A DNA stretch of 39,619 bases from a bacterium. GTDB taxonomy: Bacteria; Sysuimicrobiota; Sysuimicrobiia; Sysuimicrobiales; Segetimicrobiaceae. The translations under genes were made by a program, and so were the position numbers. The stretch is taken from the NCBI GenBank assembly GCA_035295165.1, contig DATGJN010000070.1:1-39619 (forward strand), given 5' to 3'. This document shows, piece after piece, positions 14,058 through 36,262 of the stretch. A model generated the notes under the pieces. It saw nothing but the letters and a program-made list of their open reading frames with translations. It ran no database searches and was not told the DNA's origin. Every line of letters begins with the position of its first letter. Within the stretch, counting starts at the first letter, position 1.

Positions 14058-14132
14058 GTCGAATAACCGTCGAATCACGTAGCATATTCGACAAAACTAG
14101 CAACCACCCATCGACGAATTCTCCTATTCGAC
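14058..14132. repeat. Cluster of four GTCGAAT/ATTCGAC heptamers
   Basis: GTCGAAT occurs at 14058-14064 and 14069-14075 (11-bp period). Its inverse ATTCGAC occurs at 14086-14092 and 14126-14132. The inner pair forms perfect 7-bp arms with a 10-nt gap. The last copy overlaps the stop codon of the DUF4387 gene. The cluster sits between the decayed binding-protein gene and the intact nine-gene run. Confidence 0.6.
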
Positions 14133-14432
14133 GAGAAGGTCGACTAGTGGCGCATACTGTTGGCCAGCGAGCACATCACCGTCTGCCAGGTCACCTGATG
14201 CCACCGGCCGCGGGAAGGTGACCTTTATTGCATTTGCCGGCGCGTACGGGAAGATCTTTACGTCCTCCTCTCTCAAATGGTAGATCGAGCCGATTCGAGC
14301 TCGACTTAATACGCCACTTTGTACCACACGGTCGTAGGTGGCTCGATCACCAAACATGATGTCGATCGTCAACGTGAACGGACCGGCATTCTTACTTCGG
14401 ATCAGCGTCGCCAGTTCAGCCAAGCGTGCCAT
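14124..14432 (-). CDS. DUF4387 family protein
   Basis: 102 aa, full length for the family. The block LAELATLIRSKNAGPFTLTI near the N-terminus and the closing GDVLAGQQYAPLVDLLVE are diagnostic, as is KVTFPRPVASGDLADGD. No biochemical function is established for this family. It is commonly encoded next to a DUF1446/AtuA-like protein, as here (18-nt gap), and the two may form a complex. AGGAG precedes the ATG at 14432. It is the last gene of the minus-strand run. Confidence 0.92.
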   Translation of the reverse strand: MARLAELATLIRSKNAGPFTLTIDIMFGDRATYDRVVQSGVLSRARIGSIYHLREEDVKIFPYAPANAIKVTFPRPVASGDLADGDVLAGQQYAPLVDLLVE

Positions 14433-14450
14433 TGGGGGCTCACTCCTATC

Positions 14451-15818
14451 TTAGATGTTCAACGTTTCAATCGAGAACGGCTCGAGTGGATCCTCAAGTT
14501 CGAGCACGTGGTTGAAGTTGAATCGGTAGACGGGGCCCCGGTTCAGCTCCGTTGGCGAGTGTGGAAAGGCGAGCGCACTGATCAAGCCAGACCACTCGGG
14601 AACCGCATAGTGACTCGCAATGTGAGTCACGGCCTTGGCTGCTGAAGTAGCGAGGTCTTGGCTATGAGCGGTCACCTCGAACACCAAGGCCACTTCATGT
14701 GAAATGCGGGGATCTGGCTCAAGCTTGCCCAACGTCCCATTAACCCCATACCGGCGTACGCCGATCTGGATTGATGCCGCGTCGTCGGTACCGAAAATCT
14801 CCTCTAAGCGCTGCCGAGCAGTACCCTGCATGCCTTCCAACCATGATTCCAATTGACGGAGGATCACGGGATCCCGAATGGATCCAATGACCACGGTTTG
14901 GTATCCCACGAGTTCTGCGCCTTCCAGCTTCACCGTATATGTATCTGACGATTCAAAACGACTACCGCTTACCTTCACGGCGCGCTCGTTGATCGCCTCA
15001 TAGGTGACACGATCGAGGTAGAGCGTCCCAGAGGGTTCTACGAGTTCAGTGGGGGAGCCATTCTCATAGAGTGAATGCGAGGCGACGCTGAGCGGGGTAC
15101 AACGATAGTCTGGATTGGGCGGCTCAATCACAAAGTGATCATCGCGAATCCAGGCGACTAGCGGGTCGGAATATTTGCGATTCACCACCGCCGCAGCGCC
15201 ACACTCAAGTACCTTGGCGGCGTGCCAAACAGGACCTGGCGCCAAACCGGCACGCGTCGGGATGGCGGCGAAAATCGATGCGTCGGTGCTCCGCCCGCTG
15301 ATTACGACGTCGGCTCCAAGGTCCAAGGCCGCCTGAAACGGCTCTACTCCAGCTACTGCAACGATGTGCGCACTTCGATCAAAAACACTTTCATCGATGC
15401 TGGGAGCAGTACCCAACGGGCGAATCTTCTTATTATGATACTTCTCTCGCAGGTAATCTCTCGCGGGCTCCGAATGGATGACTCCCAAGCGGAAATGCTG
15501 GCCGGCCTGCTTAGCAATATCCTCCGCCATACCGACAACCACAGATAGCTGATTATCTGCTCCTCCGGTCGCAGCGGAGCCAATTAACAGTGGAATGCGA
15601 GCATTGCGCGCTGCCGCCAGCATGTGTTGGAGGTCCCGACGCATGGCCGCCTCCGAGAAGTGGAGGGCACCTGACCCCAGGTAGTAGGGGCCGCTATCGG
15701 TCGACCCTGCATCGCAACCGATGAAGTCCGGCTTCCAGGCCATCGCCCGTCGAAGGGACTCGAGCCGGTATCCGGCCCCCAGCGAGCCCGTTGGCGCCAG
15801 GACGCACATTTCAGTCAT
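14451..15818 (-). CDS. AtuA family protein (DUF1446, acyclic terpene utilisation)
   Basis: 455 aa. I choose the ATG at 15818 because AAGGAGGG lies 8 nt before it; it overlaps the end of hyuB. Recognisable family segments are GSLGAGYRLESLRRAM, FIGCDAGSTDSGPYYLGSG, LLIGSAATGGADNQL, DLGADVVISGRSTDASIF, VIEPPNPDYRCTPLSVASHS and LYLDRVTYEAIN. AtuA was named from the citronellol/geranyl catabolic cluster of Pseudomonas, but its reaction is not settled. The neighbours here (HyuA/HyuB, DUF4387, LIV transporter) do not include the biotin-dependent geranyl-CoA carboxylase of that cluster. The substrate may therefore not be a terpene. Confidence 0.9.
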   Translation of the reverse strand: MTEMCVLAPTGSLGAGYRLESLRRAMAWKPDFIGCDAGSTDSGPYYLGSGALHFSEAAMRRDLQHMLAAARNARIPLLIGSAATGGADNQLSVVVGMAEDIAKQAGQHFRLGVIHSEPARDYLREKYHNKKIRPLGTAPSIDESVFDRSAHIVAVAGVEPFQAALDLGADVVISGRSTDASIFAAIPTRAGLAPGPVWHAAKVLECGAAAVVNRKYSDPLVAWIRDDHFVIEPPNPDYRCTPLSVASHSLYENGSPTELVEPSGTLYLDRVTYEAINERAVKVSGSRFESSDTYTVKLEGAELVGYQTVVIGSIRDPVILRQLESWLEGMQGTARQRLEEIFGTDDAASIQIGVRRYGVNGTLGKLEPDPRISHEVALVFEVTAHSQDLATSAAKAVTHIASHYAVPEWSGLISALAFPHSPTELNRGPVYRFNFNHVLELEDPLEPFSIETLNI

Positions 15819-17544
15819 CACCAACACCCTCCTTGACGGCACCTTTCTCGAGCTGCGCGCCGTACAATGCTACCGCCTTCTCGCTCGACACATATCCATT
15901 TTGCACGTCCTCCGTGACCAGATCCCTAGCACGACTCGTCGGCGTGCCATACCCGCCGCCCCCAGGTGAATGGATTGCGATCGTGTCGCCCTTTCGTAGT
16001 CGAATCTTGCGCAAAGGGCTGTAGACCGCCTTGCCGTTGACAATGATCGCCGCGAGACCCCCCGGCCGACCGCCTAGTATGCCCTTCGCCGGCCGTCGTA
16101 AACGCTGCGCACGGACGAATGCCTCCGCGTGGTCGGCAAGACACTCCACGACGACCCTCTGCCCCAGACCACCCCGGAACAAGCCAGCACCGCCTGAGTC
16201 AGTAATGAGCTCCTTCTCTCGGAACAACACCGGCGCAGTTGCTTCTATCATCTCTATCGGTGCGCACTCAGTATTGGTGGGGAACGCCAAGCATGACGGG
16301 CCATCCTTCGTGGAACGCGCTCCGAAGCCGCCAGCCGCGATTATGAGTGGTGAGAACGCACCCCGATCTGTGTCGGTACCCCGCAGGTTCAGGAGCGGTC
16401 TCGGCGCCCCGCACTCTGCAATGCAGTCGTGGGGCACGACCTCGGCAAGGGCGTCAAACAATAGCGTCGGAATAAAGTGCCCAACGGAACTGCGTGCAGA
16501 ACCTGCCGCCGGAAACCTACTATTCACTATCGAGCCCGCAGGAGCTATCACCTGGATTGGAGCAAAGATTCCTTCATTGAGCGGCAAAGCAGGTGCCAAA
16601 AGACACTTCAGGCCGTAGACCGTATATGCAGTCGTGAAGGAGAGGGCAACATTCACGCCGGCCGGCACTTGCGGTGACGACCCAGCGAAATCCACTAGGA
16701 CCCTATCGCCTTCAATGGTCACGTGCAACTTGACAGTAAAACTGAGGTGACCTATGCGCTCGGCCGCGAGGATCGACTGATATGTGCCATCTGGAATAGT
16801 TAGGATCGCGTTACGCATGTATGCCTCAGTCCGCTTGGCCAACTCGCGACACGTGTAGTGAAACCGTTCAATTGTTATTTCAGCACAGAGACTGGCCAGA
16901 CGCTCCGCGATTTTCCCGAGAGAGTTCAGCAGCGCGCTAATGTCCCCCATTACCTGTTCTGGGAGTCTGACGTTTGCCTGGATAAGACGAGACAGAGCAA
17001 CGTCTAGCCCTTGGTTGCTTGCAAACCTGATCGGCGGCACGCGCAGACCCTCTTCGAAAATCTCTGCAGCCGCGGCATCTCGACCGCGCCCACCGACATC
17101 AGGTAGATGCGCTACGACACCGGCAAGCGCGACAATCTTGCCATCGACGAAGACCGGAGCGAATAGGGTGAGGTCGAATAGGTGCCCGGTCCCCAGCCAC
17201 GGATCATTAGTGCCAATAATGTCTCCTGGCTTCCACTCAGCCAACGAGTATTGAGTCAGGATCTCGCGGGCAGTGTGGGTGATGGTTCCGAGAAAGGCGG
17301 GGATGCTCTGGGCGGATTGAACGACTGTACCGCCATCAATAGTGAGAATCGCACAGGTAAAGTCCTTTGACTCTCGTACGATGGTGGAGAAAGCGGTGCG
17401 CATCAGTACCACACCCGCTTCATCCACTATCGCCTGGAGGCGACCTCTGTCGATTTCGAGTTCGATAAAGGCTCCGGCCCCACTGGTGTCGCCATCAGAT
17501 TGGACCAATGCTCGCTCGGGAGCGAAGCCGCCTTCAGTGGCCAT
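15811..17544 (-). CDS. hyuB: Hydantoinase B/oxoprolinase family subunit (HyuB-like)
   Basis: 577 aa, normal for HyuB. Family blocks are LQAIVDEAGVVLMRTAFSTI and RESKDFTCAIL near the N-terminus, PGDIIGTNDPWLGTGHL around 105, AHLPDVGGRG, the middle PAGVNVALSFTTAYTVYGLK, and the glycine-rich end DSGGAGLFRGGLGQRVVVE and HSPGGGGYGTPTSR. With HyuA it forms the ATP-dependent N-methylhydantoinase, oxoprolinase or acetone-carboxylase-type core, in which HyuA activates by phosphorylation and HyuB completes the reaction. It starts inside the last codons of hyuA (11-bp overlap) and overlaps the AtuA-family start by 8 bp, so co-translation is expected. No acetone carboxylase gamma subunit is present, which argues against acetone carboxylation. 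Confidence 0.92.
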   Translation of the reverse strand: MATEGGFAPERALVQSDGDTSGAGAFIELEIDRGRLQAIVDEAGVVLMRTAFSTIVRESKDFTCAILTIDGGTVVQSAQSIPAFLGTITHTAREILTQYSLAEWKPGDIIGTNDPWLGTGHLFDLTLFAPVFVDGKIVALAGVVAHLPDVGGRGRDAAAAEIFEEGLRVPPIRFASNQGLDVALSRLIQANVRLPEQVMGDISALLNSLGKIAERLASLCAEITIERFHYTCRELAKRTEAYMRNAILTIPDGTYQSILAAERIGHLSFTVKLHVTIEGDRVLVDFAGSSPQVPAGVNVALSFTTAYTVYGLKCLLAPALPLNEGIFAPIQVIAPAGSIVNSRFPAAGSARSSVGHFIPTLLFDALAEVVPHDCIAECGAPRPLLNLRGTDTDRGAFSPLIIAAGGFGARSTKDGPSCLAFPTNTECAPIEMIEATAPVLFREKELITDSGGAGLFRGGLGQRVVVECLADHAEAFVRAQRLRRPAKGILGGRPGGLAAIIVNGKAVYSPLRKIRLRKGDTIAIHSPGGGGYGTPTSRARDLVTEDVQNGYVSSEKAVALYGAQLEKGAVKEGVGDD

Positions 17545-19615
17545 GGAGGTGAGCTCCGCTAACGGAATGAATCACGACATTTCCCTCCGGATCCACGGAC
17601 ATGCGATGTGCAGGTCCGACGACGATTGTCGATGCTTCATCCTGAATCAATATCGGACCCGCACCGGTCATTCCTGGAGACAAGGACGCACGATCGAGCA
17701 GCTTGGCCTCCATCCACGACAGGCGTGGTCCGAAATAGGCGCGTCGGGTTGTAGCGGATCGAGGCCGGGAAGTCGTGAGCCTCTTGTGCCGAGGCATGGC
17801 AGATGGAGCTTGAGTCAGCCGCACACTCCAGCCTACGATCTCTAGCTTACCAGGCCACGGTGGCCTCCCAAACCGAGCCTCGTATTCCTTTCGAAAGGCG
17901 GAAGCCAACCCGTCGAGTGGCGCTTCCGGAGCAACGAGTAGGTCTACATCGTACGCTTGCCCCTGGACTCTCACATTCAGGTGGCAAGTCGCCGTCATCC
18001 CGGTTCCGTTTTCGGTGTGCCTGGAACGTAAGTCCCGCTCCACTGCCAGCAGACGGCGCCGCAGCTCCTCGGACGTGAGGCCTTCAAGCGGTACGATCTG
18101 GGCCACGGATTGATCGACGGTCCGAGGTGCCAGCAACAATCCGATCGCCGAGCCAACCCCCGCGTCCACCGGGCAGATCACGCGAACGGCTCCAAGTCTG
18201 GACATGATCCCTGAGGCGTGCACCGGCCCGGCGCCTCCGGTGGCAATCAGCGTAACGGCGCCTGGATCGATGCCATGCTCCAGACAATGCAAGCGTACGG
18301 CTCTGCTCATGTTCTCATTTACTACATCGTAGATGCCCCAAGCTGCGACAATCGGGTCCCGGGTGCCGGTCCTGCTGAGTATGTGTGCCTCTATCGCGTG
18401 CTGGGCGCGTGCCACGTCCAATTGGAGGTCGCCCCCCGCAAAGTCGGCAGCACCCAAATAGCCTAGAACCGCGTCCGCATCAGTAACTGTCGGCAACTCG
18501 CCCCCGAGCGCATAACAGGCCGGGCCAGGGTTCGCGCCCGCACTGGAAGGGCCAACTTGAAGCAACCCAAGGTTGTTGATCGAGGCGATGCTGCCACCAC
18601 CAGCACCGATTTCAATCAAATCAAGGCTCGGAAGCCGCAAGGGGAGACCGCTCCCATCGACGAGTCTGTGAAGCCGTGCGACCCGCAGCTCCTCCGTCAG
18701 GGCTGGCACGCCATCTCTTATCAAGCACGCTTTGGCAGTCGTCCCCCCGATGTCCAACGCCACACTTAACGGCTCTCCACACCGCTGGGCAACGGCGCTT
18801 GCGGCGATGATCCCGGCCGCCGGCCCCGATTCGAGGATGCGCGCTGGGTAGCGGCTAGCCTCCTCCGGAGAACACATTCCCCCATCGGATTTCATGATTC
18901 CTACGCGGCCGTTGAACCCCCGTCGGATCAGCGATTCCGACAAGTCCCGCAAGTAAGAAGAGATGCGCGGACCGACATACGCATTGATCACGGTGGCGAT
19001 GAACCTTTCATACTCGCGTACAATCGGGGCGACCTCCGACGATACGCTGAAGTACGTCTCGGGGCATTCACGGGCGACCATCTCGGCCGCTTGCTTTTCG
19101 TGTTCATCATTAGCGTACGAGTTCAAAAAGCAAATGGCGATGGCGTCCCTATCACGTAACTGTTGAGTCGCTGCGAGCACCGACTGACCGTCCAATTGAC
19201 TATGAACTTGACCTTGAGCGGTCATCCGTTCAAGGATTCCGCAGCGCCACTGACGCGGCACTAAGACTGAGGGGAGGTCGATCTGAAGATCGTACAGGTC
19301 ATACCGATCTTCCTGGCCGATTTCGATGATGTCGCGAAATCCGGCCGTTGTCATGAGGCCGACTTTCGCGCCAGTTCGCTCGATCAGCGTATTCGATGCC
19401 AGCGTAGTTGCATGGACGAAAAACTCAGCCTCAGTCAATTCGATTTCCGCCTTGGTGCGAATCGCTTCGAGGGCGTTAAAAACACCATCGAGCGGGTGCA
19501 CCGTCGTCAGCACCTTTCCTGTCACGTAAGTTCCGTCGGAGCCATCCACCGCTACGATGTCTGTGAAGGTGCCGCCGATGTCTACACCGATTAGCCAGCT
19601 GCCTGCCGACCTCAC
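17534..19615 (-). CDS. hyuA: Hydantoinase A/oxoprolinase family subunit (HyuA-like)
   Basis: 693 aa from a GTG at 19615 with GGAGGA 9 nt upstream. The open frame runs 234 bp further up, but that part is low-quality sequence. It is an ASKHA-fold ATPase: first phosphate loop GVDIGGTFTDIVAVDG (residues 10-25), HATTLASNTLIERTG, second phosphate motif ALDIGGTTAKACLI near 290, IGAGGGSIA, the cysteine segment SSAGANPGPACYALGG, and adenosine motif ATGGAGPVHASG near 510. It should activate the substrate by ATP-dependent phosphorylation for HyuB. Bases 19616-19889 between it and the binding-protein gene show no gene and no clear terminator, so read-through from the transporter genes is likely. Confidence 0.92.
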   Translation of the reverse strand: MRSAGSWLIGVDIGGTFTDIVAVDGSDGTYVTGKVLTTVHPLDGVFNALEAIRTKAEIELTEAEFFVHATTLASNTLIERTGAKVGLMTTAGFRDIIEIGQEDRYDLYDLQIDLPSVLVPRQWRCGILERMTAQGQVHSQLDGQSVLAATQQLRDRDAIAICFLNSYANDEHEKQAAEMVARECPETYFSVSSEVAPIVREYERFIATVINAYVGPRISSYLRDLSESLIRRGFNGRVGIMKSDGGMCSPEEASRYPARILESGPAAGIIAASAVAQRCGEPLSVALDIGGTTAKACLIRDGVPALTEELRVARLHRLVDGSGLPLRLPSLDLIEIGAGGGSIASINNLGLLQVGPSSAGANPGPACYALGGELPTVTDADAVLGYLGAADFAGGDLQLDVARAQHAIEAHILSRTGTRDPIVAAWGIYDVVNENMSRAVRLHCLEHGIDPGAVTLIATGGAGPVHASGIMSRLGAVRVICPVDAGVGSAIGLLLAPRTVDQSVAQIVPLEGLTSEELRRRLLAVERDLRSRHTENGTGMTATCHLNVRVQGQAYDVDLLVAPEAPLDGLASAFRKEYEARFGRPPWPGKLEIVGWSVRLTQAPSAMPRHKRLTTSRPRSATTRRAYFGPRLSWMEAKLLDRASLSPGMTGAGPILIQDEASTIVVGPAHRMSVDPEGNVVIHSVSGAHLHGH

Positions 19616-19889
19616 TTCAGGGTCTCCTCCCTGCAGTGTGCCGTGGTGGCCCGTCGCATCCGGCTCCTGCAGCAGTTCGATGAATTGGGCACTGCCGTGC
19701 CGCGCCCGCAGACTACCGTGCGCACAGCCGTCCACGAACTCGAGTGCCCAGCAGGGCGCTGCCGGCCTCAGTGCCAGCTTCGCCCCCGCCGACGCCGCTC
19801 CACGTGCACACGCCTCCGTGGCCAATACGACGCGCCGAGGCCACGGCACGACCGACTACGCGACAGATCTCCTCGTTGAGCAATGGAGT

Positions 19890-21122
19890 TCAGAATGTCG
19901 ACATCGCGGAGGCCGGCACCGTCATTATTTGTACGCGCTGTCCGCTGGCAGTCCACCCCTCAATGCTCCACGTACCGAAGATATTATGGTACTGGTTGTA
20001 GCCCGTACTGCCAGTGGCCCCCTGGTAGCTGATCTTCTTCCCCGCGCTCAGCAGCTGGATGCATTGCGAGTAAAAGTAACATACCGTCCCCGGAGGGTTT
20101 GCCACGTCCAGAATCTTCTCATTGAAGACCGCCGGATTGGTCGACTTGGCGTCGGTCATCGCGAGCGATGCGATCACAACCGCGTCGTACATATTCTCTG
20201 ACAGCGTATCGGGCTGACTCTTTCCCAACACTTTCTGATACATGGCCGTGTAATGCTGCCATGCGGGTCCGGAGGGCGGCGCGCCGCTCGCACCGACGAG
20301 ATACTTGCTCGCGGCATCGAGGCCCATAGCTTGCGCAAACTCAAGGCCGTTGCTGTTGTCGGTGATGAACGGAACGTTGAGATGCCCGAGCTGCCCGAGT
20401 TCAGTAAACACGGTGTTGGCGGTCGCCACTGAGACAGCAATAAAGACGACCTGAGGTGGCGTCGCAAACGCCTTCTGTATCTCCGTTCTGTAGGAACTCT
20501 GACCTGGCGCTAACTTCTCAATGTCGAGTACCGTGCCACCATGCCTCTTGTACGCGGCAACGAGGTCAGGCACCTCGCCGAACGCGTTGGGGGTTGATTC
20601 AAAGAGGAGGGATGCCGTCATGTAGTGCTTGGCGATCGCATAGTATGCCATGGAAATGCTCAGGGTGGAGTCCGACGGATTGGCACGATAGACATATTTG
20701 TAAGTCATGTGGTCAAATGCATTAGATCCCGCCTCCGTGAATTCCACGAGCTGGGCGGGATCGTATAACGCTGCTACGCCGTCGAAATCGGGCATGGCCG
20801 GGCCGACCTCAAATGCCGGGTGCTGCAGATACAGCGTATGCCACGCCGTCACTGCATCCGTCGGATCTCCGCCAGTGTCAGCCGTTATGACGCTTAACTG
20901 CCGCCCCAGTACGCCACCGTTCCCATTCACATCGGCCACGGCCACCTGTACCCCATGAACAAACCACTGACCGACATGGGCGTGGAGACCCGTGAGTGGA
21001 AAGAGCTCTGCCACTACTATGGGTGGGGTGGCCCCCGTAGCTCCGCCGCACGTGGCGATCAAAGCACCCGCGGCGATGACCGTCAACACCACCATTGCGC
21101 CGCTGAATCGACTCCGTCGCAT
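19890..21122 (-). CDS. LIV-type ABC transporter substrate-binding protein
   Basis: 410 aa from the ATG at 21122, with AGGGGGT 7 nt upstream. The N-terminus RRSRFSGAMVVLTVIAAGAL leads to LIATC (Cys near residue 25). This is lipobox-like but has Thr before the Cys, so lipid anchoring is uncertain. The mature part is the two-lobed periplasmic-binding fold of the branched-chain amino acid family: VAELFPLTGLHAHVGQWFVH, VAVADVNGNGGVLGRQLSVI, YVYRANPSDSTLSISMAYYA, and LSENMYDAVVIASLAM. It captures the unknown substrate for LivHMGF, encoded just upstream in the transcript. Family members bind amino acids, amides, urea or aromatic acids. Confidence 0.93.
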   Translation of the reverse strand: MRRSRFSGAMVVLTVIAAGALIATCGGATGATPPIVVAELFPLTGLHAHVGQWFVHGVQVAVADVNGNGGVLGRQLSVITADTGGDPTDAVTAWHTLYLQHPAFEVGPAMPDFDGVAALYDPAQLVEFTEAGSNAFDHMTYKYVYRANPSDSTLSISMAYYAIAKHYMTASLLFESTPNAFGEVPDLVAAYKRHGGTVLDIEKLAPGQSSYRTEIQKAFATPPQVVFIAVSVATANTVFTELGQLGHLNVPFITDNSNGLEFAQAMGLDAASKYLVGASGAPPSGPAWQHYTAMYQKVLGKSQPDTLSENMYDAVVIASLAMTDAKSTNPAVFNEKILDVANPPGTVCYFYSQCIQLLSAGKKISYQGATGSTGYNQYHNIFGTWSIEGWTASGQRVQIMTVPASAMSTF

Positions 21123-21214
21123 GTGCATGACCCCCTGGGTGATCATTCTCGTTAGCACGATCCAGGCTAGGGACTGGAAGGACATCGGATGTTTCCTGGG
21201 CGTCAAGGATACAC

Positions 21215-22039
21215 TCAGTCGTGTTGCTGTCCCACCCCCTTTGCCAGGAACAACGCCGCGAGATCGTGCTGCCCAATCCTGTCAGCTGGGCCGTCAATCG
21301 CGTTCTGACCAGCGGTCATCACGTACACCCAGTGTGCATTGGCAATCGCAAGATCCACATTCTGCTCCACCACGAACACGGCTGTCCCTTCCGCGGCGAT
21401 GCGCTGAACCTGCCTCCAAACAACAGCCACGTTAGGGGGCGAAAGCCCCGCAGTCGGTTCATCGAGCAGCAGCACCTTCGGATCCAACATTAGGCCGCGC
21501 GCCATCGCAAGCATGGTTCGCTGGCCGCCGCTCAGTGTAATTGCCTTGCGCCCCCTGGCCGCCGCTAAGTCAGGGAACATCGAGAACACGGTATCGATTC
21601 GCGGCCGGATATCTCCTCGGCGCATGAAGGCCCCCATCTCTAAGTTCTCGACGATCGTCATCGAAGGGAACACATTGTCCACCTGCGGAACATAGGCCAT
21701 GCCGCACTGCGCGATCCGATATGGCGGCCATCCAGTCACATCTTGCGCACCGATCATGACAGTGCCCTCAGTGGCGCGAATCAATCCGAACATGGCCTTC
21801 AGCAGTGTCGACTTGCCTGCACCGTTCGGGCCAACGACCGCCACAATGGAGCCAGCATCCGCACGAACCGATACATCGCTGATGACTGGCACCGATCCAT
21901 ACCCAGCAGTGAGGTGATCCGCACAGACAGCAGGCAATTCACGCACCTCGTGGATCGCAGCGACGGGGGCAAGGTCGCGTCTTGGAATCTCGCCCCCTTC
22001 CCCTGAGTGAACAACGCAGCCGACTGGATCGCCCGCCAC
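21215..22039 (-). CDS. livF: LIV-type ABC transporter ATPase, LivF
   Basis: 274 aa from a GTG at 22039. The first 30 residues do not look like the family, so the real start may be the in-frame GTG before RELPAVCADHL. ATPase motifs are complete: Walker A VGPNGAGKST, Q-loop segment YVPQVDNVFPSMTIVENLEM, signature LSGGQRTMLAMARGL, Walker B KVLLLDEPTAGLSP, and the LivF-type switch VFVVEQNVDLA. It hydrolyses ATP with LivG at the inner face of the membrane to drive uptake. Confidence 0.92.
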   Translation of the reverse strand: MAGDPVGCVVHSGEGGEIPRRDLAPVAAIHEVRELPAVCADHLTAGYGSVPVISDVSVRADAGSIVAVVGPNGAGKSTLLKAMFGLIRATEGTVMIGAQDVTGWPPYRIAQCGMAYVPQVDNVFPSMTIVENLEMGAFMRRGDIRPRIDTVFSMFPDLAAARGRKAITLSGGQRTMLAMARGLMLDPKVLLLDEPTAGLSPPNVAVVWRQVQRIAAEGTAVFVVEQNVDLAIANAHWVYVMTAGQNAIDGPADRIGQHDLAALFLAKGVGQQHD

Positions 22040-22096
22040 TCCACGGACGCGCTTCAGTGCCCAAGAACCCGCGGTTATGCATCCGGAGCGCGCGCC

Positions 22097-22870
22097 TCAC
22101 GCCTCGACACTCCCGCCTAGGTACGCTTTAACTACCTCGGGATCGTTGCGCAACTCCGCCATTTGTCCGATCGCTAGCGTCCGGCCGTAGGCCATTACGA
22201 TCACCTGATCACAAATCCGGTCCACGACGCGCAGATTGTGCTCAACCAACAGCAAGGTGATCCCGGATTCGCGGAGCCTCAGAATATGTTCACACAGTCG
22301 CTCCACGAGTGCGGGATTGACACCCGCCATGGGCTCATCAAGTACGAGCAGCTTCGGTTCCGCCATCACCGCGCGGGCCAACTCCAAGAGCCGCTTCTCA
22401 CCGCCGCTCAGGTTTCTTGCGTACTGATCGCGCAGAACATACAAACCAAATGTGTTGAGGACGTCCAGAGCCTTACTCACGTGGCGGCGATCTTCGCGTC
22501 GGCCCAAGCTTGGGCGGAACAAGACGTTCCGCAGACGCTCCCCCGGTTGGTCGGGAGGGGGGACCAACATGTTCTCGAGCACACTTAGACCGCCAAATTC
22601 TCTCGATAGTTGAAATGTCCGAATCAGTCCCCGCCGTGCAATACGATACATCGGCCAACGACTAATGTCGCCGCCGTCAAACACAATGCGGCCTTGCTGC
22701 AGTGGGAGAGCTCCTGCAAGCAGGTTGACGACGGTCGACTTACCAGCACCATTAGGCCCGATCAGCGCGCCCACTCGCCCAGCATCAAGACTGAAGGCGC
22801 AGCCGGCAACCGCTCTAACTCCACCAAATGCATGGCTCAAACCTTCAACTTCGAGAATGCCTCTTGTCAT
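22097..22870 (-). CDS. livG: LIV-type ABC transporter ATPase, LivG
   Basis: 257 aa from the ATG at 22870, which overlaps the livM stop as ATGA; the longer frame upstream is a shadow of livM. Walker A IGPNGAGKST, the LivG-specific LIRTFQLSREFGGLSVLENM, signature LSGGEKRLLELARAVM, Walker B KLLVLDEPMAGVNP, and the H-loop LLLVEHNLRVVDRICD are all intact. It partners LivF. The very short ends and overlaps support one operon. Confidence 0.95.
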   Translation of the reverse strand: MTRGILEVEGLSHAFGGVRAVAGCAFSLDAGRVGALIGPNGAGKSTVVNLLAGALPLQQGRIVFDGGDISRWPMYRIARRGLIRTFQLSREFGGLSVLENMLVPPPDQPGERLRNVLFRPSLGRREDRRHVSKALDVLNTFGLYVLRDQYARNLSGGEKRLLELARAVMAEPKLLVLDEPMAGVNPALVERLCEHILRLRESGITLLLVEHNLRVVDRICDQVIVMAYGRTLAIGQMAELRNDPEVVKAYLGGSVEA

Positions 22871-23889
22871 CGTCCCGCTCCAGAGTTGTTGCTCAGCGAT
22901 GACGCCGGCATTTGGGCACCTGGCATGTGCAAACCTCGTGGGAAACGCGCCCTGCGTTCCGGAACCAGACCTTGCGGGTGGAATCGCAGAGTGACAATCA
23001 AGAGTATTCCAATCACAATGTTCCGAGCTGCAGCGATCAGCAGCGGGTGCCCTGGCACCGGGGGGAGGAAACGTGTGCCCTCTATGAACACCACCGTTAC
23101 AATCAACGTCCCTACCGCCGCACCAAGGTTGTTGCCTTGCCCACCGATAATCATTGCAGCCCAGACAATGAACGTCTCCGCGGTGGTCCATGAGTCCGGA
23201 GCAATCCCACCTATAAACTCAATCAATAACCCTCCAGCGATACCTGCATATACACAGCCGATGCCCATGGCAAGCATTCGAACCTTCACCGTGTCCTTGC
23301 CAAATGTCGCCGCGACGTCGACATCTTCTCTTATTGCCCGCATGGTTCGGCCCAGCGCTGAGTGATAGATGCGATGCGCCACGAACCACAGCGCCAGCAT
23401 GATCACGACGCAAACGCCCAAGAAAAACAGCGTGTAGTCATTCGGGCTGAGATTCAGTAAACGGTTGAGCGGCTGCGGGATTCCCCGTAGTCCGAACCAT
23501 CCGTTAAACAAGGGCGTGAGGTTCCCAACCAAGTCATAACAGATTGTAGCGAACGCCACCGTGACAATGCCGAGGTAGTCGCTACGTAGATTCCAGCGTG
23601 AGAGGATCGTTCCACCAACCGCAATCCCCAACACACCCGCAACGATCGCACCTAATGCGAGTGTAAGCGGGAAGGGCCACCCCAACCCCAAGATGTATTC
23701 TTGATCTGTTCCGGCCGCTGGCGGCAGCGCACTGACTCCAGCGAAATAGGCACCGGCCGCCAAAAATGTGATGTAGGCGAAGTCCAAGATGCCCGTGTAT
23801 CCAAACTGAATATTGAGACCCAGGGTTAAGATATTGTAGATGCAAAACAACACGGCCATCGTCGCCAAGTAGTAGACGATGTCGTTCAT
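22867..23889 (-). CDS. livM: LIV-type ABC transporter permease, LivM
   Basis: 340 aa inner-membrane protein with about 8-10 hydrophobic segments. Family blocks: LGLNIQFGYTGILDFAYITF, RSDYLGIVTVAFATI, LGRTMRAIREDVDVAATFGK (the EAA-type cytoplasmic loop), VYAGIAGGLLIEFIGGI, AAMIIGGQGNNLGAAVGTLI, and RFHPQGLVPERR at the end. It forms the channel with LivH, whose stop lies 3 nt before this start. Confidence 0.95.
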   Translation of the reverse strand: MNDIVYYLATMAVLFCIYNILTLGLNIQFGYTGILDFAYITFLAAGAYFAGVSALPPAAGTDQEYILGLGWPFPLTLALGAIVAGVLGIAVGGTILSRWNLRSDYLGIVTVAFATICYDLVGNLTPLFNGWFGLRGIPQPLNRLLNLSPNDYTLFFLGVCVVIMLALWFVAHRIYHSALGRTMRAIREDVDVAATFGKDTVKVRMLAMGIGCVYAGIAGGLLIEFIGGIAPDSWTTAETFIVWAAMIIGGQGNNLGAAVGTLIVTVVFIEGTRFLPPVPGHPLLIAAARNIVIGILLIVTLRFHPQGLVPERRARFPRGLHMPGAQMPASSLSNNSGAGR

Positions 23890-23892
23890 CGC

Positions 23893-24768
23893 TTACGCCT
23901 TCCCTTGGGTGGGAATGAGCCCCTGCGGCCGGATCAGTATCATCACGATCAGCACAAGGAAGGCAACATCGCTCTTCAGGGCCGAGTTGAGTACGGCCGC
24001 GGACATCTCCGTAACACTGCCAATCGTCAACGCCCCCAGCATCGCACCGTAGGGTTGGCCTACGCCCCCGACAATCACAGCAGCGAAGATAACGAACAAG
24101 AACTCCTCACCAAACGAAGGTTGGAATCCCCCAGCACTCAAAGCCAGCATCACCCCGGCCAAGCCAGCCAAACACCCGCTGATGAACCAGGTCCATAGCG
24201 TTACGCGATCTGTGTCTACGCCACCTACGCGCGCCAAGTTCAAGTTATCAGACATGGCACGCATTGCCTTACCCAATTTGGTGTATTTGAGCAACCAGTG
24301 GATCGCTAGCATGGCCCCCAAACCGATCGCCATAATGATTACCTGGTTCGGCGTGAAAATGAGAGGGCCGACGGAAAATACCTGTTGATTGGGAATGTCG
24401 AACTTTCGAAAGTCAGTGCCCCAAAGTATTTGAAAGATGTTGGCCAGTATCAACGACATGCCGAGGGTAACGATTAGCAAGAAAAGTAGTCGCGCACCAC
24501 GCCGGACAAAAGGCTTGAGGACGAACTCGCTGATGACCACGGCGCCCACGCCCGTAGCCACCGCACCACCAACCGCCGCAAGCCAAAAATCGACATGGAG
24601 CTGAACGTTGAGGATCCAACTCAAGTATGCTCCGAGTGTAAGGTACTCGCCGTACGCGAAGTTGACGTAGTTAGTGACTCCAAACTGCAAAGTCACGCCG
24701 ACAGCTGCCAACGCAAGGACTGATGCGGTCACCAAACCAAAGCCGAACGAATTGAGAATCAGATGCAT
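23893..24768 (-). CDS. livH: LIV-type ABC transporter permease, LivH
   Basis: 291 aa inner-membrane protein. Typical blocks: AAVGVTLQFGVTNYVNFAYG, GAYLSWILNVQL, LLIVTLGMSLILANIFQILW, LGKAMRAMSDNLNLARVGGV (coupling loop), GCLAGLAGVMLALSAGGFQP, VIVGGVGQPYGAMLGALTIG, and the end ILIRPQGLIPTQGKA. AAGGGGTGA stands upstream of the ATG at 24768. It is the first gene of the nine-gene run that ends with DUF4387. Confidence 0.95.
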   Translation of the reverse strand: MHLILNSFGFGLVTASVLALAAVGVTLQFGVTNYVNFAYGEYLTLGAYLSWILNVQLHVDFWLAAVGGAVATGVGAVVISEFVLKPFVRRGARLLFLLIVTLGMSLILANIFQILWGTDFRKFDIPNQQVFSVGPLIFTPNQVIIMAIGLGAMLAIHWLLKYTKLGKAMRAMSDNLNLARVGGVDTDRVTLWTWFISGCLAGLAGVMLALSAGGFQPSFGEEFLFVIFAAVIVGGVGQPYGAMLGALTIGSVTEMSAAVLNSALKSDVAFLVLIVMILIRPQGLIPTQGKA

Positions 24769-25155
24769 GCTCGGTCACCCCTTCTCGGCGAGCAGCCGGT
24801 TCCAGCCGGGCGTCTCAAACTGATCGCTGGTACCTCGGGATGGTTTCTCCTTGGCTGACGCCAGGGCTTCGGAGCTCCCTTCCAGTGCTCCGGATATCGG
24901 AGAGGGCGTCCGATGTCGAGGTTCCTCGGCACGACGCTTCGCGCGTGATGACACCACCGCGACTGCGTCTCTGTCATTCACTTCTTTGTGGTACACTGCG
25001 CCCAACTGCGGTAAAGCGTGATACCCGCGCATCGCCGCAGGGCGAGGCACGATGTGTAGCGAGTCGCGGCCCACCCTCGTTGCTTTTGGGGGCTGTTGCA
25101 TCATCGGTCGACCCGCGTTTCCCGCTCGTCACGCAACTGACGCACCCCCGACTGG
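24769..25155. other. 387-bp gap before the LIV run
   Basis: Expected to hold the promoter of the livH run, but I see no good -35/-10 pair on the minus strand. A 109-residue minus-strand frame at 24775-25104 ends 6 nt before livH with SDQFETPGWNRLLAEKG. It matches nothing I know and may be chance or a gene remnant. Read-through from the AceE-like gene is possible. Confidence 0.35.
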
Positions 25156-27501
25156 TTAGCCGCCCTGCAATGCGAGACAACACGCTTCGTAAATCGACTC
25201 CCAGTCGATTCGGCACGCTCTGTAGAGATCCGCGGGCATTCCCGACTCTCCAAAGCGCGTGACCCCAAGCGGGTACGCTTTCCGCCCCACCATGCTCCCG
25301 ACCCACGCCAGCGTGGAGGGATGACCATCGAGAACGGTCACGATCGGGGCATCCACAGCTACCGCAAGCAGCTCGGGGCCAAGCGTCTCAAGACCGCGGG
25401 TCACGCCGCGCTGCCACGCATGGTACACGAGATCGGGGCTCGTGCAGTTGACGACGTTCGCATAAACTCCGTCCTGCATGAGCTCTTCCGACGCGCGCAC
25501 GGCCTCCGGGACCACGGCGCCGGTCGCCCAGATCTGCACGAGGTTCCGGCTCGGCACGCACCCCGGCTCCTCCATCCTGTCAACCAGCCGGTAGGCGCCC
25601 GAGAGAACCTTGGCGCGGAGGTTGTCACGGTCACGGGCGTTGAGGAGCCGCTGGTCGATCAGGGCCGTGCTCAGCCGCAGGTACGCGGACATCGGATTGC
25701 ACTCGCGATGCAAGGCGCGTAACGACTCGAGGAGAATCCACTCAAGCTCAAGCGCGAAGCACGGCTCATAGTACACGACCCCTGGCAGCGAGAGTCCAAT
25801 CGCTGGTGTAATGACCGATTGGTGCGCACCTCCTTCGGTAGAAAGGGTAACGCCTGATGGGGTGCCCACCAAAATGAACTTGCTACCGGAGTACAAAGCA
25901 TACACAAGAGCGTCGAGGCCTCGTGCCACGAACGGATCGTACAGGGTACCGATCGGGAGAAGCGGTTCCCCGTTCACCTCCGCGGACAGGCCTAACTGCC
26001 CCAAGGCCATGAACAGGTTGGTTTCGGAAATGCCAAGTTCTAAATGCTGACCATCCGGCGTGCGCTCCCACTTAATGAGCCGAGGGCCGAGCACGGTAAA
26101 CCGGTCTCGCTCCTCTTGGTGACTCCAAACCCCCACCTGATTGATCCACCCGCCGAGATTTGTCGACGTGGCAACATCCGGGCTAACCGTCATGACGCGC
26201 CGTCCGGCCTCTGGCGCGGTCCTGCGAAGGGTTGTCAGAATCTGTCCAAACGCGCGCTGCGTGGAGTTCTCCGGGCCGTAGTCGCGACCGAGATCTGTTG
26301 GGAGCTCGAGGCTCGGCCTAGACTGACGGGGAGGACGTGCCAGTACGCGCCGGCGCTCCGCGCATAGCTCTGCCTCTGCGCTCCGTTCCGTGAATCCGGC
26401 CCACATGTCATCCTGCCGGATCCCAAGGCGGACCATCAGGTCCTCCATCTGCTCCGCGGACAGTAATGCTGAATGATTCAGCGGGTCGCCAGCGATCGGG
26501 AGTCCCCACCCTTTGATCGTATAGGCAAAGATCACTGAGGGCCCTGGAGCGGCGTCGGCCTCCGCAAAGACTTTAGGAAGCACGTCGAGATCATGCCCAC
26601 CCAAGTCGGCCAACAGGGTCTTGACGTCTTCATCGGTCCGGCTGACAAGAAGCGTCTCCCCAAGCGCCCGGCGAACCGTAGCGGCGTCCGAGCGGAGCAA
26701 GAATTGATACTCCTCATTCGGCATCTCGTCGATGCGCCGCTTCAGATGTTCTCCGCCGGGTTCGGAGAAGGCGGCCTGTAGCTGCCGACCGTACTTCGCC
26801 TCAAACACGGCCCACCTGTTCGCTCGAAACATGTCCTCCAATTGGCGGACCCGCATGCCCGGAACCACACGATCCAACGACTGCCGGTTCACGTCTACTA
26901 TCCACACGATATTGTCAAGGTGCGCAAGCGCCGGTTCGGCCACCGCCTCCCACACTGATCCCTCGTCCAGCTCGGCATCCCCGATGAGCGCAATGAAGCG
27001 CCGTCCAGAACAGTCTGTGGCGCCGAATCGTGACTGGACGTAGCGGTCAACCAACGCGGCGAAATTGGGCGCCACCGCGCCGATGCCCACCGACCCTGTC
27101 GAGAAATCGACCGGATATGGATCTTTCGTCCGGCTAGGATACGCCTGCAAGCCTTGGAACTCCCGCAGCGTGGTGAGATGACTCTGTTCCAGATTGCCTA
27201 GCAGATAATGAATCGCATGCAACACCGGCGACGCATGCGGCTTGACAGAGATCCGGTCCCCGGGACGCATGAAATCGAAGAATAACGCCGTCATAATCGA
27301 GACCACCGATGCACTCGACGCTTGGTGGCCGCCCACCTTCAGGCCACTGAGGTTGGGCCTAACCTTGTTGGCGTGGTGGACGATCAGCGTGCTCAGCCAG
27401 AGGATCCGGCGCTGGATAGCCTGCAGCGTCTCGAGTCGCATCAAGCGTTGTGCGTAGTTGCACGAGACGCTGACATTTGCCTCGGACGCCACCTGCTTCA
27501 C
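25156..27501 (-). CDS. AceE-like thiamine-diphosphate enzyme (homodimeric pyruvate dehydrogenase E1/transketolase family)
   Basis: 781 aa from a GTG at 27501 with AGGAG 7 nt upstream. The ThDP motif is clear: IGDAELDEGSVWEAVAEPAL with D175/E177 and the paired N205 in VDVNRQSLD. GGHQASSASVVSIMTALFFD and DFSTGSVGIGAVAPNFAAL match the GHIGSFASSA and VSMGLG regions of AceE. ELGISETNLFMALGQLGLSA carries the activating Glu, and GVTLSTEGGAHQS matches the AceE RTTLNGEG-type block. E. coli AceE is about 100 residues longer. No E2 or E3 subunit gene is nearby, so it may act as a stand-alone 2-keto acid decarboxylase or ketol-transferring enzyme. It is divergent from the IclR gene and shares its control region. 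Pyruvate from the adjacent sugar route is a possible substrate, by inference. Confidence 0.82.
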   Translation of the reverse strand: MKQVASEANVSVSCNYAQRLMRLETLQAIQRRILWLSTLIVHHANKVRPNLSGLKVGGHQASSASVVSIMTALFFDFMRPGDRISVKPHASPVLHAIHYLLGNLEQSHLTTLREFQGLQAYPSRTKDPYPVDFSTGSVGIGAVAPNFAALVDRYVQSRFGATDCSGRRFIALIGDAELDEGSVWEAVAEPALAHLDNIVWIVDVNRQSLDRVVPGMRVRQLEDMFRANRWAVFEAKYGRQLQAAFSEPGGEHLKRRIDEMPNEEYQFLLRSDAATVRRALGETLLVSRTDEDVKTLLADLGGHDLDVLPKVFAEADAAPGPSVIFAYTIKGWGLPIAGDPLNHSALLSAEQMEDLMVRLGIRQDDMWAGFTERSAEAELCAERRRVLARPPRQSRPSLELPTDLGRDYGPENSTQRAFGQILTTLRRTAPEAGRRVMTVSPDVATSTNLGGWINQVGVWSHQEERDRFTVLGPRLIKWERTPDGQHLELGISETNLFMALGQLGLSAEVNGEPLLPIGTLYDPFVARGLDALVYALYSGSKFILVGTPSGVTLSTEGGAHQSVITPAIGLSLPGVVYYEPCFALELEWILLESLRALHRECNPMSAYLRLSTALIDQRLLNARDRDNLRAKVLSGAYRLVDRMEEPGCVPSRNLVQIWATGAVVPEAVRASEELMQDGVYANVVNCTSPDLVYHAWQRGVTRGLETLGPELLAVAVDAPIVTVLDGHPSTLAWVGSMVGRKAYPLGVTRFGESGMPADLYRACRIDWESIYEACCLALQGG

Positions 27502-27577
27502 GCGCCGACTCCTGGCGCGGAACGACAGGACGGACCCGCCGGAGTGTCGAGGGACCAGCTCGAGTCGATGGCTAGGG

Positions 27578-27606
27578 TTGCCAAATTCGCCCCCATAGAG
27601 TAAAAT
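27578..27606 (+). promoter_or_regulatory. Sigma-70-type promoter for the IclR gene
   Basis: TTGCCA (27578-27583), a 17-nt spacer, then TAAAAT (27601-27606). Both hexamers match the consensus at five of six positions. It drives the plus strand toward the ATG at 27726. Confidence 0.7.
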
Positions 27607-27620
27607 GGGACAAGTGTCTC
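27607..27620. promoter_or_regulatory. Imperfect palindrome, candidate IclR operator
   Basis: GGGACA-AG-TGTCTC is symmetric at all but one pair. It lies directly after the -10 box of the IclR promoter, covering the start point, and within the shared region of the divergent AceE-like gene. That position fits autorepression and co-control. Confidence 0.55.
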
Positions 27621-27725
27621 ATTTCGCTATGGAAGATGATAGAGAATGAGCCGTGACGCTGTCAAGGGATCCGGCGCGAACCGACGGCCCTCCCATTCCG
27701 CCGGCCGCTCGGAGAAGAACGCCGA

Positions 27726-28625
27726 ATGACCTCGCGATACCGGAGACCCAAGCTCAAGCCGATGGCACGGTGGCTCTTGATCATCGAGGCGTTCGCCGCG
27801 GCAGGTGAGTGGGGGGTGCGCGACCTTACGGCTGCCACTCGCTTGCCAAGGAGTGCCGTTCACCGAATCCTGCATGAAATGCACCAGTACGATATGTTGA
27901 CTTTGGCTGAACGCCCGGGCCGCTTCACGGTTGGCCCGTCCCTCATCCGCGTAGCGGCTCTCCTTCTTGACAGCCTGGACGTGACTCGGCACGCACGGGT
28001 TGTGCTGGAGGAGGCTGCGCGCATCTCCGGCGAGACGGTGATCCTAACGCTGTACGATCCGAAACGTCGTCAATTCTTCGCGGTCGATGCTGTGGAGTCG
28101 GCTCAGACTGTCCGCTACATCTGGCGCTCGCTCCGCGAATGGAACGACCTACACATAGGCTCGAGCGGGAAAGGCATCCTGGCTTTCCTCCCGAGGGAGG
28201 AACGGGATGCAGTAGTGGATGCTCTTCCGGATCCAATCCCCGGCCTCAGGCAGATTTCGAAGGCACAGCTCCGACAGCAACTCGAACGGGCGCGACGCCA
28301 GGGCTACGTTCTGACCCACGGCGAACGGTACCCGGGAGCATTCGGCGCCTCCGCGCCGGTTCGCAACGCGGTTCGGCTGATCGGTGATCTCATCATCACA
28401 TGGCCTGACAATCGCAATCGCGGACGTGAGCGCACGCTGGCCGCGCTGGCGGCCACAGCTGCCTCCAAGCTCTCCGTGTCGTTAGGGTATCGAGCTCCTG
28501 GCGACGCGCCGCGCGGTCTTGCGCCCGTCGATGCATACCAGGAAGATGATCAACTGTCACTCCGCCGGGGTGGAACCGATGCTTCATCGCGTCATGGAAC
28601 AAGAGCGAGTGATTCGAAGGAATGA
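27726..28625 (+). CDS. IclR-family transcriptional regulator
   Basis: 299 aa. Residues 12-70 are the winged helix-turn-helix (WLLIIEAFAAAGEWGVRDLT, then RLPRSAVHRILHEMHQYDML and RFTVGPSLIRVA). Residues 85-265 are the effector-binding GAF-like domain: ISGETVILTLYDP, LHIGSSGKGILAFLPREERD, LERARRQGYVLTHGERYPGA and FGASAPVRNAV. IclR regulators usually control catabolic genes in response to small acids or aromatics. It is divergent from the AceE-like gene with a palindrome over its own start point. It also converges on the sugar-transport operon (42-nt gap), so it may serve either or both catabolic runs. Confidence 0.93.
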   Translation: MTSRYRRPKLKPMARWLLIIEAFAAAGEWGVRDLTAATRLPRSAVHRILHEMHQYDMLTLAERPGRFTVGPSLIRVAALLLDSLDVTRHARVVLEEAARISGETVILTLYDPKRRQFFAVDAVESAQTVRYIWRSLREWNDLHIGSSGKGILAFLPREERDAVVDALPDPIPGLRQISKAQLRQQLERARRQGYVLTHGERYPGAFGASAPVRNAVRLIGDLIITWPDNRNRGRERTLAALAATAASKLSVSLGYRAPGDAPRGLAPVDAYQEDDQLSLRRGGTDASSRHGTRASDSKE

Positions 28626-28667: not shown

Positions 28668-29426
28668 TTATGCCTGTGCCGTGAACCCGTGAGCAACGAA
28701 GTGCATCAATTCTTCAACGGTTACGTCACTCTTGACCAGGCTCGCCGCGACGCGTCCATGCTCAATGATGGTAATCCGATCCGCGACAGGATGAACGTGA
28801 GCCAGGTTGTGGTCGATGTAGATGATGCCAAGACCCCGCTCCCGAACCGCTTCGATAGCTCGGAAAACGCGTCGAGTCTCCCGGACTGATAGTGCTGCGG
28901 TCGGCTCGTCCAGCAGCAACACACGCGCGCCGAAGTACATAGCCCGCATGATCGCGAGCGACTGGCGTTCACCGCCAGAAAGGACCGCAGCGGGTTGATC
29001 GGCAGACTGAATGTGCGTGAGTCCGATCTCATACAACTGGTCTGCACAGATCCTCCGCATCGCGCCCGTTTTCAAGATAGGCAACGGGGTTCGCAGCCAG
29101 GTCAGTTCCTTCCCGAGGAAGAAATTCCGCCAAAGGCTCATCTGGTCTATCAAGGCGAGGTCTTGGTAAACGGTCTCAATGCCGAGCCGGCGAGCATCGG
29201 ATGGTGACCGGAATCGCACCTCAGTCCCCTCGAACCGAATGCTGCCGCTTGTCGGCTGATGATACCCGGTGATGATCTTGAGGAGCGTCGACTTACCGGC
29301 GCCGTTATCGCCGACGAGGCCGACCACCTCGCCAGCCCGAAGTGCAAAGTTCACGTCGGCGAGCGCCCGCACGCTGCCAAACTGCATCCCAATTCCGTCA
29401 AGTTCAAGGAGTGGAGGCCCAGTCAC
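28668..29426 (-). CDS. Ribose-type sugar ABC transporter ATPase (single-domain, FrcA-like)
   Basis: 252 aa with one nucleotide-binding domain, unlike the two-domain RbsA. Walker A VGDNGAGKSTLLKIITG, Q-loop VYQDLALIDQMSL, signature LSGGERQSLAIMRAM, Walker B VLLLDEPTAALSVRE, and H-loop IIYIDHNLAHVHPVAD are complete. HVHPVADR and the IIEHGR ending are typical of carbohydrate uptake class 2 ATPases. It overlaps the permease gene by ATGA and is the last gene of the seven-gene run. Confidence 0.94.
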   Translation of the reverse strand: MTGPPLLELDGIGMQFGSVRALADVNFALRAGEVVGLVGDNGAGKSTLLKIITGYHQPTSGSIRFEGTEVRFRSPSDARRLGIETVYQDLALIDQMSLWRNFFLGKELTWLRTPLPILKTGAMRRICADQLYEIGLTHIQSADQPAAVLSGGERQSLAIMRAMYFGARVLLLDEPTAALSVRETRRVFRAIEAVRERGLGIIYIDHNLAHVHPVADRITIIEHGRVAASLVKSDVTVEELMHFVAHGFTAQA

Positions 29427-30478: not shown

Positions 30479-30513
30479 CGGTGAGAGCGCACACGACTGC
30501 GAGGCATCGGCCT

Positions 30514-31506: not shown

Positions 31507-31643
31507 CTATTCCCACCCCCCTAAGAACATCATACGGGTCGTGCTTGACCGGAACGCAGTTCGCACACAACTGTCGTCGAACACTGCGGACACGTCGGTT
31601 TTCGGTCATTCGTGCCGATAGTCCACGTCTCCTTGTGGCCTTA

Positions 31644-32507: not shown

Positions 32508-32688
32508 GTCGACCTCCCTGTCGGTGCCTGCACCGCGTTCGCAGACAAGAAGGGCCGGTTCCTCGGCGGCCAAGCTGAGTATTTCTTGCGGCTCCGTGGC
32601 TCCAGCGGTCGCGGCATTGATGCCTAAGACGCAGCGCAGTCCGCGACCAGCGGACTACTCTGCTGTGCTTCCGGTCGCACCGAGCCCA

Positions 32689-33435: not shown

Positions 33436-33450
33436 CGTTTACGCCCCTCC

Positions 33451-34635: not shown

Positions 34636-34723
34636 ATCTTTCCTCGCTCTCCTATCCCTCAAGAGTGAGTGGCATCATGCGGGACGGTGACAAACAAGGC
34701 ACATTGAGGCTCCCAAGTTCGGA

Positions 34724-35815: not shown

Positions 35816-36094
35816 CGGCACATCCCTCCTCGTTGGAGTCGCAGCGGCACCACGGACGAAACACAGATTCGGCCGACACTTCAGCATACCCCGCCCGAAA
35901 TCCCGCTTCACGCCTCCGTGCCACGCAGACTCAAGCGTCACGTACACCGTGCTTCGCGGGGCATCAATCCGTGACCGCACGGCGCATATGTTGTGTTCCG
36001 GCGGATTGGATGCGGCACCGCCGCAGCAGGAGAACCAGATCTCGGCGGTATAGTGAGGTAGTAGCGCTCAAGGATCGGTACTGCCCCTGGAATC

Positions 36095-36111
36095 TCGCTT
36101 GCGCGAAGCGA
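36095..36111. promoter_or_regulatory. Palindrome TCGCTT-N5-AAGCGA in the divergent control region
   Basis: Perfect 6-bp arms around GCGCG, between the dehydratase gene (minus) and the second dehydrogenase gene (plus). A related pair, AAGCG at 36181-36185 and CGCTT at 36194-36198, overlaps the -35 box at 36187. The rest of 35816-36262 shows no gene. Confidence 0.45.
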
Positions 36112-36186
36112 AACAAAGTCGCGCCCACCGTCGCCGCGACCCTGTGGTATTGTGCTCAGACGCACGAAATGGACAAACAGAAGCGT

Positions 36187-36216
36187 TTGAAACCGCTTGC
36201 AGGACTGTACCATACT
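36187..36216 (+). promoter_or_regulatory. Candidate promoter of the second dehydrogenase gene
   Basis: TTGAAA (36187-36192), an 18-nt spacer, then CATACT (36211-36216). The -35 matches five of six consensus bases and the -10 four of six. Confidence 0.4.
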
Positions 36217-36262
36217 GCCACCATGCAGGTCGTGGCTTGGCGCGTTAGGAGGGGAGGCTATA

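Follow-up and report, generated by a model that had tools for sequence, protein, structure and literature searches.

Why should a dedicated importer, the two subunits of an ATP-dependent amidohydrolase, a protein of the AtuA kind and a small DUF4387 protein be encoded together in a single run of bacterial genes? This combination is found on contig DATGJN010000070.1 of assembly GCA_035295165.1 (Segetimicrobiaceae), one of the 121 contigs (C70) of a 4.79 Mb genome (G000), and we analysed the entire contig, 39,619 bp, hereafter called the window. The run belongs to a block of eleven genes (14124-28625), ten co-directional on the minus strand and one divergent IclR regulator, the ten being transcribed from 27501 to 14124 in the order E1-like thiamine diphosphate (ThDP) enzyme, LivH, LivM, LivG, LivF, binding protein, HyuA, HyuB, AtuA-like and DUF4387. 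Our best reading is that the parts are already known and that what is new is their combination, with HyuAB coupled to a lyase of the CmlAB/AtuA kind that acts on another substrate. We put the chances at even that the block is an IclR-controlled, self-contained catabolic cassette, in which import would be followed by opening by HyuAB, C-C cleavage of the CmlAB type and use of a 2-oxo acid. Its features are as follows.

14124-14432, minus strand: DUF4387 protein of 102 aa, predicted CmlB-like small lyase subunit (PF14330, 4.4e-33, 114 bits)
14451-15818, minus strand: AtuA-like protein, predicted CmlA-like large lyase subunit (PF07287, 73 bits; start refined to ATG 15818)
15811-17544, minus strand: HyuB, metal-site subunit of an ATP-dependent amidohydrolase (Hydantoinase_B, PF02538, 465 bits)
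17534-19615, minus strand: HyuA, ASKHA-type ATPase subunit (Hydantoinase_A, PF01968/PF05378, 262/154 bits)
19890-21122, minus strand: LIV/HAAT-type substrate-binding protein (Peripla_BP_6, 98 bits; start refined)
21215-22039, minus strand: LivF-type ABC ATPase (ABC_tran; UrtE/LivF models)
22097-22870, minus strand: LivG-type ABC ATPase (ABC_tran, BCA_ABC_TP_C; start refined to ATG 22870)
22867-23889, minus strand: LivM-type permease (BPD_transp_2)
23893-24768, minus strand: LivH-type permease (BPD_transp_2)
25156-27501, minus strand: E1-like (AceE/transketolase) ThDP enzyme, first gene of the block (Transketolase_N, PDH_E1_M)
27604-27623, no strand assigned: putative IclR operator palindrome, AATGGGACA-AG-TGTCTCATT, in the E1/IclR intergenic region
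27726-28625, plus strand: divergent IclR-family regulator (HTH_IclR, IclR_C)

The AtuA-like and DUF4387 proteins are almost certainly homologs of the citramalate lyase subunits CmlA and CmlB (PDB 9ERQ and 9EVF, the latter a complex with ADP and pyruvate released 2025-10-08). Sequence searches of the PDB gave each a sole confident relative, 9erq_A (CmlA) for the AtuA-like protein (1.5e-86 over residues 13-458) and 9erq_B (CmlB) for the DUF4387 protein (8.8e-21). AlphaFold2 models of the two (pLDDT 95.4 and 95.9, respectively) had in Foldseek one match each below E = 0.001, namely 9evf_A (TM 0.87/0.88) and 9evf_B (TM 0.85/0.83), and CmlA (9erq_A) and the window protein both retain the 19 columns that are invariant in an alignment of 75 AtuA sequences. 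The window was compared with 80 named GTDB loci, and in 79 of these 81 an AtuA-like gene adjoins that of DUF4387 on the same strand. The sequence-only reading had proposed that these two form a functional pair, which their adjacency supports, and had called their function unsettled, a description that full-length homology to citramalate lyase subunits overturns. On the strength of this homology the pair is probably a lyase. The chemistry common to pairs of this kind would be a retro-aldol or Claisen-type cleavage of a 3-hydroxy acid that releases a free short acid, and one possibility for the ADP is a role in activating the carboxylate as an acyl phosphate. The family is large, with at least 594 pattern matches for DUF4387 and the short AtuA-like proteins on GTDB contigs, at least 568 of them confirmed. 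A PMC literature search found no mention of DUF4387, a literature search found no paper describing CmlAB, and no description of the gene combination and its substrate was found in the searchable literature; a lead to isatin hydrolase was a false text match.

Is the pair then simply a citramalate lyase? Citramalate or its amide would be taken up or made, HyuAB would at most release it, CmlAB would yield acetate and pyruvate, and the E1-like enzyme, to which pyruvate would be suited, would oxidize the latter. The full-length homology, the fold shared with 9ERQ/9EVF and the identical catalytic-type residues all favor this explanation, which we nevertheless judge unlikely, for three reasons. First, when 89 AtuA-like proteins were placed in a maximum-likelihood tree, a 100/100 split parted the window protein and its ortholog from another genus of the same family (genome G007) from the clade linked to methylaspartate, which holds the E. 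coli and Vallitalea/Defluviitalea genes, and from the L110 and L117 sequences; because the window pair branches apart from the lyases of the methylaspartate pathway, citramalate is probably not its substrate. Second, the residues after the conserved Arg184 are RSTDAS in the window as compared to RAYDPA in CmlA. Third, the window yielded no gene for a glutamate mutase, ammonia-lyase or mesaconase. The nearest relatives of the window and G007 proteins (∼54-56% identical) are mostly beta-proteobacterial. AtuA-like genes are also carried on plasmids of Klebsiella, Salmonella and E. coli; the E. coli plasmid examined has a methylaspartate-pathway context, GlmS-GlmL-GlmE-methylaspartate ammonia-lyase-DUF1446-DUF4387-symporter-fumarase, a setting consistent with citramalate cleavage and with the DUF1446 gene recorded beside mal (PMC4682846).

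What the pair releases is suggested by its neighbors. Within the window's AtuA branch, the neighborhood includes ThDP enzymes of three kinds unrelated to one another: the E1-like enzyme (window and G007), a benzoylformate-decarboxylase-like enzyme (L055 and L058) and, in L226-L229, a two-subunit sulfopyruvate-decarboxylase-like enzyme accompanied by an aldehyde dehydrogenase. By locus, such a neighbor is present in 8 of 11 cases in this branch and in 6 of 104 elsewhere (p = 7e-7), and counted once per enzyme kind in 3 of 6 (p = 0.007), values that are supportive rather than proof since the test was chosen after the pattern had been seen and the loci are related and not independent. Because enzymes of 2-oxo acids recur beside these genes, the product of the lyase would seem to be a 2-oxo acid. 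The window's own candidate has AceE as its best PDB match (1l8a, 8.6e-43); it scores 208 bits against TIGR00759 (AceE-type pyruvate dehydrogenase E1; cut-off 859.9) and is thus related to that equivalog without belonging to it.

HyuA keeps the phosphate and adenosine motifs of ASKHA proteins, DxGGTxTD (as DIGGTFTD), DxGGT (DIGGT) and GxxPGP (GANPGP), and HyuB still has the Asp-His-Asp-His metal tetrad of CapB (D61, NDP..GTGH..D, AHLPDVGG), for which the metal site of caprolactamase served as reference (PMC8453981). The ATP and metal sites are intact, and HyuAB reaches the curated thresholds of no named enzyme: the NCBIfam caprolactamase equivalogs gave 399 bits for HyuA and 211 bits for HyuB against 1000-bit cut-offs, and carboxylase equivalogs, whose cut-offs are 1250-1500, gave 242, 150 and 112 bits. 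At the place aligned with the vicinal Cys410-Cys411 of CapB, HyuB has no Cys pair. The best PDB match of HyuA is N-methylhydantoinase (7hk5, 1.9e-104), with caprolactamase next. The earlier note had named a plain oxoprolinase as the identity that would tell against it; this was not established for HyuAB, which lies far below the caprolactamase and acetophenone carboxylase cut-offs. HyuA and HyuB are also homologous to carboxylase subunits (5l9w, 5svb) that have the metal tetrad in common with them, and HyuAB might on these grounds be an ATP-dependent carboxylase, similar to acetone or acetophenone carboxylase, that builds the carboxyl group later released by the lyase. This we regard as very unlikely because a third (gamma) subunit is missing, carboxylase models score well below hydrolase models, and the acetophenone and acetone carboxylases rank under N-methylhydantoinase and caprolactamase. 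Among the 30 open reading frames (ORFs) of the window that were scanned, none encodes an acetone-carboxylase gamma subunit, a biotin carboxylase or a terpene acyl-CoA protein, as the note had stated, and its view that the acetone carboxylation and terpene labels do not fit stands. As an amidohydrolase, HyuAB would combine the ATP-using ASKHA site of HyuA with the metal site of HyuB to hydrolyze a cyclic amide (lactam-, imide- or hydantoin-like) or a carbonyl group related to it.

Do HyuAB and the lyase belong together? HyuAB, AtuA and DUF4387 also occur together in Cupriavidus oxalaticus, Variovorax paradoxus, V. boronicumulans (within 7 kb) and a further genome (G017), and such loci fall on three separate AtuA branches. 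In the HyuB tree the Cupriavidus and Variovorax plasmid proteins, sequences picked by their similarity, share one clade with the window HyuB (95/82). A general rule of co-occurrence is nonetheless rejected, as HyuAB was the operon partner of AtuA and DUF4387 in none of the 80 GTDB loci (a HyuB-like ORF lay somewhere in the flank of three) and stood beside none of the AtuA matches in 250 genomes of Zwartia's order. Hydantoinase_B copies number 15 in G000 and 23 in G017. The claim that the gene set defines a route has therefore to be tempered, since AtuA and DUF4387 are normally without HyuAB and HyuB is itself so numerous in the genome. HyuAB could accordingly be an ordinary ATP-dependent hydantoinase or oxoprolinase, with the lyase pair a chance neighbor from another pathway; that HyuB is present in so many copies, that it is usually not beside AtuA/DUF4387 and that HyuA is nearest to N-methylhydantoinase among solved structures would all agree with this. 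We consider it quite unlikely, however, because the HyuB and AtuA genes overlap by 8 bp, both genera have the genes in the same order with a single regulator site, and HyuAB is found linked to the lyase again on independent AtuA branches. In our estimate, the odds are somewhat in favor of HyuAB and the lyase sharing one compound.

The block is one unit, as shown by the order and ends it has in common with G007, its low GC in both genomes and the common promoter palindrome. All eleven genes are present in G007 (contig C20) in identical order at 76-92% protein identity, the nine genes originally noted at 85-92% and the E1-like gene at 83%. Nucleotide similarity ends just past DUF4387 and near the end of the IclR gene, and the flanks differ on both sides. 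Differences per codon position are ∼0.08/0.05/0.34, a pattern that indicates purifying selection. The GC content of the block is 59.2%, against 67.0% for the part of the window left of it (the low GC goes on to the contig end, at 60.1%), and in G007 the block has 62.3% between flanks of 70.1 and 70.9%; because the block is low in GC in both genomes, a mobile or recently gained cassette is suggested. A chimeric contig joined near 14 kb, where the GC content changes stepwise, was ruled out, as the same block, ends and GC drop occur in the otherwise unrelated G007 contig. No DUF4387 was found in a genome of the same genus (G001), and the DUF4387 of G002 is a different paralog only. The G007 E1-like ORF (L028 12376-14526, plus strand) is short of ∼65 N-terminal residues with the upstream DNA still similar, possibly through a frameshift.

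The palindrome of the E1/IclR intergenic region, AATGGGACAAGTGTCTCATT, is present in G007 with small changes. A search of the window returned two matches, both strands of one site, against 0.02 expected, and the region's two best promoter-like sites, one per strand, flank it within the E1/IclR gap. No other match with fewer than two mismatches was found in the genome, which has only weak two-mismatch sites. The sequence-only reading had listed nine genes ending at 24768; all nine are on the minus strand and of the families it gave, and the unit goes beyond that point to take in the E1-like and IclR genes. It had also held that gene overlaps tie the importer to HyuAB. Overlaps (LivM/LivG, 4 bp; HyuA/HyuB, 11 bp; HyuB/AtuA as above) are confined to two blocks, and 274 bp lie between the genes for the binding protein and HyuA (in G007, about 122 bp); importer and enzymes are thus tied by synteny and strand. 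This distance uses a HyuA start moved from GTG 19849 to GTG 19615, which is supported by orthologs and lies downstream of the Shine-Dalgarno-like sequence GGAGGAG. Because of the gap, a second promoter upstream of HyuA is possible.

Taken in order, the LIV/HAAT-type ABC importer, for which two permeases, two ATPases and a type I binding protein are all present, would take up a small amide- or acid-like compound; HyuAB would open it; the AtuA-like/DUF4387 heteromer would cleave a C-C bond in a 3-hydroxy-acid unit, either tertiary or secondary, to yield a 2-oxo acid plus a free carboxylic acid of short chain; and the E1-like enzyme would consume the 2-oxo acid. Of this scheme, the order of steps, the class of substrate and the product are inferred; what the analysis observed is which genes are present, that the block is conserved, that the lyase pair matches CmlAB in sequence and predicted fold, that catalytic-type residues are intact and that 2-oxo-acid enzymes recur nearby. 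We hold, tentatively and at somewhat less than even chances, that this is an undescribed pathway in which a HyuAB amidohydrolase is followed by a nucleotide-binding lyase of the CmlAB type with a new specificity, both acting on one imported compound and served by a dedicated ThDP enzyme, and that such coupling has been assembled several times independently. Several points weigh against the proposal. HyuAB is common and expanded in the phylum, so that neighborhood alone is weak evidence, and its linkage to AtuA/DUF4387 is rare. The reaction class of the pair is itself taken from homology, at ∼36% identity to CmlA for the AtuA-like protein, and the 100/100 split separates the pair from the methylaspartate-linked lyases. 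The association with ThDP enzymes was tested post hoc. Finally, the binding protein is without a close solved relative, its remote LIV/AmiC-type matches (best 4mlc, 2.7e-11) giving no basis for a ligand.

Other genes near the block and other members of the family deserve brief mention. Adjoining low-GC genes at 28668-37279 encode a ribose-type ABC importer, an HpcH/HpaI aldolase, an MR/MLE dehydratase, two GFO/IDH/MocA proteins and a metallo-beta-lactamase fold protein, and resemble a sugar-acid catabolic set. At 37504-39131 (minus strand) an acetolactate-synthase-like ThDP enzyme is broken into two ORFs that overlap but are read in different frames (the N domain at 38214-39131, the middle and C domains at 37504-38859), which suggests a frameshift or sequencing error. 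Other AtuA-DUF4387 pairs of the phylum (L017-L024) stand beside Dpp/Opp-type peptide importers, not HyuAB/LIV, and L024 also has an M81/MlrC metallopeptidase. PF23544, the C-terminal domain of AtuA, has no match in the whole of G000; it is also found as a separate small ORF in L129, L132, L135 and others, with a DUF4387-like order of elements and no significant profile comparison. The idea that DUF4387 is the split-off counterpart of this domain was rejected: hhalign placed the two in register with a similar element order, but at a probability of 2.3%, and 2 of 30 column shuffles scored higher.

DUF4387 and short AtuA-like proteins are widespread and still annotated as "DUF" or "terpene utilisation", and the terpene label of AtuA should be used with caution. 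The link to a solved citramalate lyase makes this mis-annotated family testable as acetate- or carboxylate-releasing 3-hydroxy-acid lyases that differ in substrate, with one AtuA branch tied to ThDP enzymes of 2-oxo acids and sometimes to HyuAB.

How, then, does the block compare with known systems? Like CmlA/CmlB, the window pair has both subunits, with full-length homology, the predicted fold and the invariant residues; unlike them, it is on a separate AtuA branch, is free of methylaspartate-pathway genes in the window and is accompanied by HyuAB, a LIV importer and an E1-like enzyme. With the AtuA of acyclic terpene utilisation it shares PF07287 and, by analogy, the expectation that a 3-hydroxy acid is cleaved and a short acid set free. 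However, the 463 aa window ORF has PF07287 only, with a separate DUF4387 protein in place of the PF23544 C-terminal domain, and the window has no atu gene partners, being without geranyl-CoA carboxylase, acyl-CoA dehydrogenase and CoA ligase genes. The architecture and ATP motifs of HyuA/HyuB are those of caprolactamase CapAB (6YRA) and N-methylhydantoinase (7HK5), and the metal tetrad is that of CapB. The window proteins differ from CapAB in their scores, far below the caprolactamase cut-offs, and in the missing vicinal Cys pair, and from N-methylhydantoinase in that the latter is a fused chain without the last metal His. The closest likeness in gene content is to the Cupriavidus and Variovorax plasmid loci, which have HyuA, HyuB, AtuA and DUF4387 together and a HyuB of the same clade; those loci, unlike the window, have a D-2-hydroxyacid dehydrogenase and major facilitator superfamily or tripartite transporters rather than LIV and E1-like genes, and their AtuA is on another branch.

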